Positions 3,745-6,234 of a stretch of 37,877 bases of DNA are shown piece by piece. Source of the stretch: Bacteroidota bacterium (lineage in GTDB: Bacteria; Bacteroidota; Rhodothermia; Rhodothermales; Rubricoccaceae); the NCBI GenBank assembly GCA_022561755.1, contig JADFQN010000011.1, positions 1 to 37,877 on the forward strand, read 5' to 3'. The translations under genes were made by a program, and so were the position numbers. How positions within the stretch are numbered: position 1 is the stretch's first letter; each line of letters opens with the position of its first letter. The notes under the pieces were generated by a model. It was not told the origin of the DNA, did not search any database, and saw only the letters and a list, made by a program, of their open reading frames with translations.

Positions 3745-3818
3745 AGTAGGCTCTCCAGGCAGGGTGAATGGCGGCGGCGTTTCAGGCAGAACGTAATCAC
3801 TCCGCCGGAACAAATCCT

Positions 3819-3839
3819 CGATGTCAACAATTGACATCG
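3819..3839. promoter_or_regulatory. Palindromic operator upstream of ParDE module 1 (CGATGTCAA-CAA-TTGACATCG)
   Basis: Perfect 9 bp arms with 3 nt spacer, directly upstream of the antitoxin gene; repeated upstream of module 2. Confidence 0.65.
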
Positions 3840-3872
3840 CTGATCGAATCGACAACCTGAACCACCACTGCC

Positions 3873-4136
3873 ATGAACGTTTCGCTTCCTAAGAAGCAGG
3901 AGCAGTATGTGAAGGCCCTCGTCAAGAAAGGGCGATACAACTCGGCCTCCGAGGTCGTCCGCACCGGCCTACGGCTTCTTGAGGAGAAGGAGCGCGTCAA
4001 CGAACTTAAGCTCAAGGAGTTGAAGCGCCTCATTCAGGAAGGCATCGACAGCGGCCCGGCAGCGCCGCTCGATATGGAGGAAATCAAGGCAACGGCACGC
4101 AGGCAGTTCGAAGAGCGCAAAGCCAACCCCGCCTAG
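3873..4136 (+). CDS. parD: Type II toxin-antitoxin system ParD family antitoxin (module 1)
   Basis: MNVSLPKKQEQYVKALVKKGRYNSASEVVRTGLRLLEE is a canonical ParD/CopG RHH N-terminus. Confidence 0.92.
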   Translation: MNVSLPKKQEQYVKALVKKGRYNSASEVVRTGLRLLEEKERVNELKLKELKRLIQEGIDSGPAAPLDMEEIKATARRQFEERKANPA

Positions 4137-4137
4137 T

Positions 4138-4449
4138 ATGGCGCTGCGCATTGACCGGCTGCCGGAGGCTCGTCTCGACCTTATCGAAATCTGGCATTAC
4201 ATCGCAGCCGACAATCCGAAGGCCGCCGATCGCGTACTTGATAGCATAAACACGAGCATTGGCCGGCTAGCAGTGTATCCCGAACTCGGCCGCGCAAGCC
4301 CAGAGATCCAGAAGAACCTCCGCAGCATGGTCAGTGGCCACTACGTTGTGTTTTATACACCACGCCGAGAAGCGATTGAAGTAGTTCGTGTCATCCGCGC
4401 GGAGCGGGACGTCTCACCCGAGATGCTTGAGGGTGCCGGGGACAAATAG
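4138..4449 (+). CDS. parE: Type II toxin-antitoxin system RelE/ParE family toxin (module 1)
   Basis: LPEARLDLIEIWHYIAADNPKAADRVLDSI...YPELGR...LRSMVSGHYVVFYTPR...IEVVRVIRAERDV ParE pattern; directly follows parD. Confidence 0.92.
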   Translation: MALRIDRLPEARLDLIEIWHYIAADNPKAADRVLDSINTSIGRLAVYPELGRASPEIQKNLRSMVSGHYVVFYTPRREAIEVVRVIRAERDVSPEMLEGAGDK

Positions 4450-4506
4450 GGCAAATGCGCGCTGCCTCCGGCAGAACGTAATCAAACGCGCCGGAACATA
4501 GTGGCG

Positions 4507-4523
4507 ATGTCAACAATTGACAT
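4507..4523. promoter_or_regulatory. Palindromic operator upstream of ParDE module 2 (ATGTCAA-CAA-TTGACAT)
   Basis: Same palindrome core as 3819-3839, at a comparable distance from the antitoxin ATG. Confidence 0.62.
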
Positions 4524-4558
4524 TGCCGAGAGAATCGACAACCTGAACCCCCACCGCC

Positions 4559-4867
4559 ATGAACGTCTCGCTCCCAAAGAAGCAGGAGAATTACGTAAGG
4601 AGCCTCGTCAAGAAGGGCCGCTACAACTCGGCTTCCGAGGTCGTCCGCACCGGCCTACGGCTTCTTGAGGAGGAGGAGCGCGTCAACGAACTCAAGCTCA
4701 AGGAGCTGAAGCGCCTCATTCAGGAAGGCATCGACAGCGGCCCAGCAACGCCTTACAGTCGCGAGGAAATGCGCGCGCTCGTCGGAAAGCGCATTGCCGA
4801 ATTGCGCGGCGAGGTCGAACGGGGTGAACGCCCAGCGCCGGGAGGCCCCGACTCGATCCCCGTTTAA
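4559..4867 (+). CDS. parD: Type II toxin-antitoxin system ParD family antitoxin (module 2)
   Basis: N-terminal half nearly identical to module 1 ParD; C-terminus different. Confidence 0.9.
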   Translation: MNVSLPKKQENYVRSLVKKGRYNSASEVVRTGLRLLEEEERVNELKLKELKRLIQEGIDSGPATPYSREEMRALVGKRIAELRGEVERGERPAPGGPDSIPV

Positions 4868-5191
4868 ATGGAGCCGTACGACCTCCTTCCGCGAGCACAG
4901 AAGGACTTTGTAGATTTGGCGACATACGCGAGCGAGTACAACGACGCTGCGCGCGACCTAATCACGGACACGCTGTTTGACTGCTTCGAGCTTCTCGCGG
5001 AGTACCCGCAGATCGGCCGAAGCCGTGAGGGTCTGGCTCCGGGATTACGCAGCTTCCCGGTGAATCGCCTGAAAGTGACCGTGTTCTACTTTCCGACGAC
5101 CGATGCAACGGGGCCTCCCCTCATTGCGCGCATCCTCCGCCAGGAGCGGGACATCTCACCCGAAATGTTCGAAAGTGCCGGGGACAAATAG
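4868..5191 (+). CDS. parE: Type II toxin-antitoxin system RelE/ParE family toxin (module 2)
   Basis: LLPRAQKDFVDLATYASEYNDAARDLITDTLFDCFELLAEYPQIGRSREGLAPGLRSFPV...ILRQERDI ParE pattern; abuts the parD stop. Confidence 0.88.
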   Translation: MEPYDLLPRAQKDFVDLATYASEYNDAARDLITDTLFDCFELLAEYPQIGRSREGLAPGLRSFPVNRLKVTVFYFPTTDATGPPLIARILRQERDISPEMFESAGDK

Positions 5192-5265
5192 GGCAAACGC
5201 GCGATGATTCGCTCAGAACGTAATCAAGCGCAACGGGTTCTAGCGGACCAACTAGCCGCTCTCCC

Positions 5266-5505
5266 GTGGACGAATCCGATTTCTACATCGCGATTGCCGT
5301 GTCCTTCGTCGGCTTCTTCGTGCTGGCGTTCGTGCTCCTCTACCCTGTCTATCGCTTCATGAAACGCGAGGAGAGACGCAGCGAGGCGTGGACGGATTCT
5401 GCGATTGCGGATAGACGGCGGCAAGCTCTCGAACAAGCCGAGCGAGCGAGCTCCGAGGGCGACGGGAGCGGCGGGCCGGGAGAGCCGCCGGAGGTGATTG
5501 GGTGA
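5266..5505 (+). CDS. Small single-pass membrane protein, unknown function
   Basis: 79 aa ORF (GTG start) with one TM segment YIAIAVSFVGFFVLAFVLLYPVYRF. Confidence 0.4.
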   Translation: MDESDFYIAIAVSFVGFFVLAFVLLYPVYRFMKREERRSEAWTDSAIADRRRQALEQAERASSEGDGSGGPGEPPEVIG

Positions 5506-5697
5506 TTACGTGAGGGGCGTGAGGATGGCGACCGGCGGGGATTCGCCGCACGCTGGACATCCGTGCACCAACACGTGTGATAACGCAGAGATGCTGTGCT
5601 CATGTTTGGATCGTCCAACCGGAGGAGCGCCTCCGATGAGCGTGATACCGTGGGACTGCCATTAACTACGCATTCACGTAATCACGTAATCACGTAT

Positions 5698-6234
5698 TCA
5701 CTCCACGTATATCCACGGCGCCATCTTTTCCAGCGTCTTCTCGCCGATCCCGCGCACATTGACGACCTGATTGATGCTGGTGAACGGCCCCCGGTCCCGC
5801 CGGTAGGCGATGATGCGGCCTGCTAGCGCCGGGCCGATCCGGGGCAGGCGTTGCAGCAATTCGACATCCGCCGTATTGAGATTCATCCGCACAGGATTGT
5901 TGGCGCTGGAGCGGGTGCGCGACCTTCTTGTGCGCCGGCGGGGAGAGGCATCGGCGTACCCGGACGTGGGAATGACGACTGAATCGGCAGGGACAATCCG
6001 CGTTGCGAATCGAACCGGCGTTGCGGTATCCGCGTCCTCGGCGCTCGCCAGACTATCGCGCTCTGCCCATTGCGCATCCACTTCGCTGAAGAGATCGGCG
6101 GCGGGCTCGGTCGGTTGGCCCTGAAGCTGCCGAACGCCGAAGCCAACTGTGAGCGCGCCGCAAAGGACGAGGATGGCCGTGGCTTCGATGCTTGTGATGG
6201 ATAGACGCTGCTGGAGGCGATAGATTCTGTGCAT
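5698..6234 (-). CDS. ComEA-like helix-hairpin-helix DNA-binding protein
   Basis: MNLNTADVELLQRLPRIGPALAGRIIAYRRDRGPFTSINQVVNVRGIGEKTLEKMAPWI is a typical ComEA HhH domain; N-terminal TM segment. Confidence 0.88.
   Translation of the reverse strand: MHRIYRLQQRLSITSIEATAILVLCGALTVGFGVRQLQGQPTEPAADLFSEVDAQWAERDSLASAEDADTATPVRFATRIVPADSVVIPTSGYADASPRRRTRRSRTRSSANNPVRMNLNTADVELLQRLPRIGPALAGRIIAYRRDRGPFTSINQVVNVRGIGEKTLEKMAPWIYVE

Follow-up and report, generated by a model that had tools for sequence, protein, structure and literature searches.

Two tandem type II parDE operons with a common regulatory shell and different specificity halves, one of them probably recombinant, in a Rubricoccaceae genome

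The window analysed was a stretch of 37,877 nt (contig JADFQN010000011.1) from a draft genome of the Rhodothermales (198 contigs, 88% complete). Between ackA and a comEA-type gene it carried two intact parDE operons in tandem on the + strand (unit 1, 3873-4449; unit 2, 4559-5191; Table 1). The parD1 stop and the parE1 start were separated by 1 nt, and the parD2 stop and the parE2 start by 0 nt. The flanks on both sides were colinear with those of the sister species G001, the only other genome of the genus compared. The same site was empty in G001, with 346 bp from ackA to the comEA-type gene and one copy of the repeat GAACGTAATCA in between.

Both antitoxins were of the ribbon-helix-helix (RHH) type, with PF03693 and TIGR02606 scores above the curated cut-offs and with 7YCS (PrpA), 6X0A and 7B22 (V. 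cholerae ParD2) as the nearest solved structures. A predicted toxin of the ParE/RelE superfamily, a kind expected to arrest growth (through gyrase in the ParE proteins studied) and to be neutralised by its cognate antitoxin, was encoded directly 3' of each antitoxin (PF05016 above the curated cut-off); the nearest solved structure was the ParE of 6X0A for ParE1 and 7R5A for ParE2.

Table 1. Features of the parDE tandem (positions in the window).
Feature	Coordinates	Strand	Description
Direct repeat copy 1	3789..3799	+	GAACGTAATCA, left edge of array
Operator 1 (putative)	3821..3837	.	palindrome ATGTCAACAATTGACAT, overlaps TTGACA -35-like hexamer
parD1	3873..4136	+	probable hybrid antitoxin, 87 aa; PF03693 53.2 bits, TIGR02606 83.2 bits
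ParD1 layout			residues 1-64, shell common with ParD2; tail 65-87, another type
Exchanged segment, unit 1 (putative)	4065..4401	+	from ParD1 codon 65 to near ParE1 codon 88; breakpoints approximate
parE1	4138..4449	+	predicted toxin, 103 aa; PF05016 63.9 bits; 6X0A ParE 65.5 bits
Trailer 1	4433..4455	+	23 nt, same as trailer 2; spans parE1 stop
Direct repeat copy 2	4474..4484	+	GAACGTAATCA, between units
Operator 2 (putative)	4507..4523	.	17-bp palindrome, same as operator 1
parD2	4559..4867	+	antitoxin, 102 aa; PF03693 53.3 bits, TIGR02606 83.4 bits
Matching segment, unit 2	4751..5137	+	from ParD2 codon 65 to near ParE2 codon 90; similar to the G034:C73 module
parE2	4868..5191	+	predicted toxin, 107 aa; PF05016 42.8 bits; 7R5A 32.3 bits
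Trailer 2	5175..5197	+	23 nt, same as trailer 1
Direct repeat copy 3	5216..5226	+	GAACGTAATCA; flank, no third module

The preliminary description of this DNA had reported tandem modules with conserved ends and divergent middles, and both the coordinates and the pattern were borne out by direct repeats and sliding identity, which changed block by block without uniform divergence along the unit. Direct repeats linked 3803-4084 with 4489-4770 (282 nt, 87%) and 4391-4494 with 5133-5236 (104 nt, 82%), and a further repeat was found in three places (3774-3799, 4459-4484 and 5201-5226). Nucleotide identity between the units was about 82% in the leader, which had been described as common to both. The near-identity described for the DNA-binding half of ParD was found in the parD middle (95-98%), with only about 80% in the parD 5' part. 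Alignment was poor across the 3' part of parD and the bulk of parE, and identity rose again to 80-88% at the parE 3' end and trailer, as described. The longest identical blocks were of 39 nt (3948/4634), 37 nt (4021/4707) and 23 nt (the trailer, 4433/5175), with further blocks of 19 nt at the operator (3819/4505) and 18 nt (3846/4532).

At the protein level, identity between units was 92% for ParD residues 1-64 (complete for residues 1-10) and 76% for the ParE tail (last ~17 residues), and the divergence described for the ParD C-terminus and most of ParE amounted to 30% identity in the ParD tail and 29% in the ParE body. Third positions were identical in 34/36 of parD codons 27-62. Codons 1-26 differed from codons 27-62 in mismatch density (Fisher p = 0.002, for a boundary picked post hoc). 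A test of run lengths for a recent conversion tract within parD gave no significant result (p = 0.20; p = 0.11 for third positions).

ParE identity tracked ParD identity among 569 ParD pairs with N-terminal identity of at least 80%. Median ParE identity was 77% (5th percentile 66%) in the 155 pairs with 90-95% N-terminal identity. The pair formed by units 1 and 2 (93/29) was the most extreme of the 569, which argues that the mosaic did not arise by chance. In G034, which belongs to the same order but a different family, each of the two specificities occurred in a module by itself, joined to a distinct and less similar N-terminal half (tail/ParE identity of 62/45% between unit 1 and G034C10, and of 61/48% between unit 2 and G034C73).

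Trees were built from short alignments (68-87 columns). With ParE, the grouping of units 1 and 2 was rejected (AU p = 0.004), and unit 2 joined G034C73 and module C167 of its own genome (97/94). With the ParD N-terminal half, units 1 and 2, C167, C112 (also of this genome) and G034C73 came together (87/82). In that tree, the grouping of unit 1 with G034C10 plus G022C184 was rejected (AU p = 0.0009), as was that of unit 2 with G034C73 (p = 0.006); unit 1 with G034C10 alone was not rejected (AU p = 0.097). Maximum chi-square placed breakpoints near ParD 66 and ParE 88 (p = 0.002, the lowest value attainable with 500 shuffles). Incongruence by AU tests and defined breakpoints mark a mosaic gene pair, and together with the outlying identity they uphold the earlier proposal that the operator and DNA-binding half stayed in place while the ParD tail and ParE, which make up the specificity half, were exchanged. 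Since the relatives of unit 2 are the same for its two halves, recombination is more likely to have produced unit 1. No direct donor was found, the nearest relatives of either specificity half being 45-62% identical. A plasmid source was also considered and rejected: plasmid relatives of ParE1 (rhizobial and other) reached no more than 52% identity, and this over a portion of the protein, and there was no plasmid match for ParD2.

In type II parDE operons a palindromic operator over the promoter is bound by the antitoxin; a palindrome that may serve as one was present in both units and almost specific to parDE modules in the genome. At up to one mismatch, TGTCAANNNTTGACA had six sites in the draft genome: it was exact at units 1 and 2 and C112, carried one mismatch at C167, and occurred elsewhere at two sites only, each with one mismatch. 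These four modules contain the four ParD genes of the genome above the family cut-off, and those of C112 and C167 are on contigs separate from the tandem. The shared operator proposed earlier thus extends, as a putative operator, to four related parDE modules. It is very likely that ParD1 and ParD2 bind each other's operators and cross-regulate, because ParD residues 1-10 and the 17-bp operator are identical. The DNA is read by the beta-strand in RHH proteins, and in PrpA, a PF03693 antitoxin among the nearest solved relatives, the N-terminal 54 residues suffice for promoter binding (PMC7848731, PMC9731233).

The right arm of the operator is the TTGACA -35-like hexamer. In the promoters of units 1 and 2 (3838-3870 and 4524-4556) this hexamer was kept and the -10 was poor (at most 3/6). 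C167 had a perfect -10 (TATAAT) at 17 bp, and several relatives had a good one. Expression from the tandem promoters is uncertain because the -10 is poor in both; the two units could be weakly expressed, or driven from another promoter.

Across Bacteroidota and the class of the window (104 upstream regions), a CAA-N3-TTG palindrome lay about 26-87 bp upstream of most ParD genes. As a 15-bp palindrome with this core it was found upstream of 72/104 distinct ParD genes (0.64 expected from shuffles), and no description of it was found in the literature searched. Its outer bases went with the ParD beta-strand (TACCAA vs TGNCAA). ParDs of the window's order with an NVSL or NVSI strand had TGNCAANNNTTGNCA (TGNCAA type) in 9/9 cases, all nine TGNCAA operators had such a strand, and an NVS(L/I) strand was recorded with TACCAANNNTTGGTA (TACCAA type) in 0/62, a coupling of strand and operator that is confounded by shared ancestry. 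Six of the 62 TACCAA operators were scored as SVSLG, and those read by eye were TSISLG.

Specificity of ParD is set in M. opportunistum ParD3 by positions 60, 61 and 64 (PMC7354431, PMC7669267). By gapless alignment to 6X0A (offset 6), their equivalents are 54, 55 and 58, occupied by I, Q and I in both ParDs; the equivalent of position 80 is 74, T in ParD1 and L in ParD2. The view of the middles as specificity-determining is therefore retained for the ParD tail and the toxin, and does not apply to the equivalents of 60/61/64, which lie in the shared half. With 54/55/58 identical, it would fall to the ParD tail to insulate the pairs; should there be no insulation, either antitoxin may protect against ParE1 and ParE2 alike.

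The locus is most probably explained as two chromosomal type II parDE operons with one regulatory shell and two specificity halves, unit 1 being recombinant and a shared repression circuit being expected. The shell consists of the operator, the RHH half of ParD, the ParE 3' end and the trailer, and the specificity half of the ParD tail and ParE. Unit 2 is congruent with its own ParD subfamily, and the block of unit 1 between roughly ParD codon 65 and ParE codon 88 would derive from another parDE lineage. The most likely order of events would be gain of a module at the site, tandem duplication, and replacement of the tail and toxin of one copy by recombination, perhaps with later conversion of a stretch of the parD shell. 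Each toxin would be bound by its cognate antitoxin through the tail. Both antitoxins would bind both identical operators over the -35 region, and probably also those of C112 and C167, which would place the modules on one repression circuit.

Rather unlikely, and the best of the alternatives, is that an independent second parDE was inserted alongside the first and had its ends later overwritten by gene conversion from its neighbour, which would yield the same mosaic through a different sequence of events. The uneven identity of the shell (about 80% in the leader and parD 5' part, 97% in the parD middle and about 86% in the trailer) suggests at least one later conversion tract, but both ends would have to be converted, including the non-coding leader, repeat and trailer, and no relative is known that carries, at this locus, the specificity of unit 1 within a shell of its own. 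A course without recombination, in which the copies of a duplicated module diverged rapidly at the interface and in the toxin because insulation was selected for, is very unlikely here, although duplication and divergence is the standard account of paralogous ParDE (PMC7669267): the matching third positions and the identical trailer stand beside a 29% identical toxin, the two specificity halves fall in different lineages, and the AU test disfavours it.

A third partial leader had been described at 5214. Only 11-13 nt (CAGAACGTAATCA) were common to the leaders and this site, which is merely the 11-bp repeat. Because the empty site of G001 carries one GAACGTAATCA, copy 3 is taken as flanking or target sequence, and a third decayed module was ruled out. 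That the locus is a site-specific cassette array, integron-like or otherwise, in which GAACGTAATCA is the recombination core, is highly improbable. Three repeats flank the two modules and one is present in the empty site, but GTTRRRY (the attC core) was absent from all three junctions on either strand, which rejects integron cassettes. The other parDE modules of the genome were without the repeat, and its three further genomic copies were in contexts that look unrelated, against a genome-wide recombination site. PF03693 matched in 24/245 genomes of the class; no other tandem ParD was seen in the 245, this genome alone having two adjacent. With a locus-specific repeat, no other tandem and no third module, the earlier suggestion of an array that swaps repeatedly was not sustained, and within the genomes searched this is one exchange event and no repeating cassette system. 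The arrangement looks as though a module bordered by a short direct repeat had been inserted and then duplicated in tandem. A chimera assembled from two separate modules is extremely improbable in spite of the draft contigs, given that the sequence on either side is colinear with that of G001, that collapse is unlikely for units that differ in sequence, and that the other two parD loci are on separate contigs.

As a separate observation, copies of CACGTAATCAC, inverted and tandem and resembling GAACGTAATCA, occurred in the window at 5494-5513 and 5674-5701 and were absent from the locus of the sister species.

The recombinant tandem with its shared operator is a variant form of the known type II ParDE kind. 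It resembles ParD2-ParE2/ParD3-ParE3 of M. opportunistum (6X0A, 5CEG; PMC7669267) in the families involved and in having paralogous pairs in one genome, and the 6X0A ParE is the closest solved ParE to ParE1 (65.5 bits). In M. opportunistum, however, few residues (60/61/64, and 80) insulate the pairs after duplication and divergence, whereas here 54/55/58 are identical and tail and toxin appear to be exchanged as one block. PrpA/PrpT of Pseudoalteromonas rubra (7YCS; PMC7848731, PMC9731233) likewise has a PF03693 antitoxin with a modular RHH N-terminus, but is a single module that acts in plasmid copy-number control with the operator motif TTTG(T/A)AAT. The antitoxins of yefM-yoeB and axe-txe cross-bind operators owing to similar DNA motifs (review PMC10305079), on different replicons and in different hosts, whereas here the modules are in tandem in one genome, one is a probable hybrid and the binding is predicted. 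NetFlax (PMC10440598) likewise treats the DNA-binding and neutralising parts of antitoxins as separable and describes toxins and antitoxins that swap partners; those swaps are between whole protein families, unlike the exchange proposed here within the antitoxin gene, with visible breakpoints and adjacent products. A ParDE-like module of Microcystis aeruginosa (PMC7935541) is similarly fenced by direct repeats, but these are 152-bp repeats with inner inverted repeats around a single module.

Paralogous toxin-antitoxin pairs are usually seen as the outcome of duplication and stepwise divergence until cross-reaction ends. Here the specificity of one pair has apparently been replaced by recombination with the control half unchanged, and both products are adjacent; a new toxin would be gained in one step and the old on/off switch kept. 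A possible though doubtful generalisation is that ParD modules consist of an invariant shell (RHH strand and matching CAA-N3-TTG palindrome) and a specificity block (tail and toxin) recombined as a unit. If so, new toxins would arise pre-paired with an antitoxin tail and pre-wired into an existing operator circuit, and identical shells would let tail and toxin go together, with no free toxin left. The tandem offers a direct test of whether the ParD tail by itself suffices for insulation, given identical helix-3 specificity positions, and of whether several different toxins can be under one operator circuit in one cell.

Further features were seen at the other ParD modules of the genome. The C112 parE was interrupted near its start by a 163-bp element (L026, G000:C112, 479-641) that resembles a MITE of the mariner/IS630 type, its 19-bp terminal inverted repeats being perfect and TA flanking it at either end; the parD upstream was intact. 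The parE remnant ran into a stretch (860-999 of L026) weakly like a phage integrase end (PF00589, 14.6 bits, below the cut-off), which suggests that it is fused with a recombinase remnant. Directly 3' of the C167 parDE lay a gene for a HEPN-type protein (PF18735, 29.1 bits; G000:C167, L025 1113-1796, - strand).
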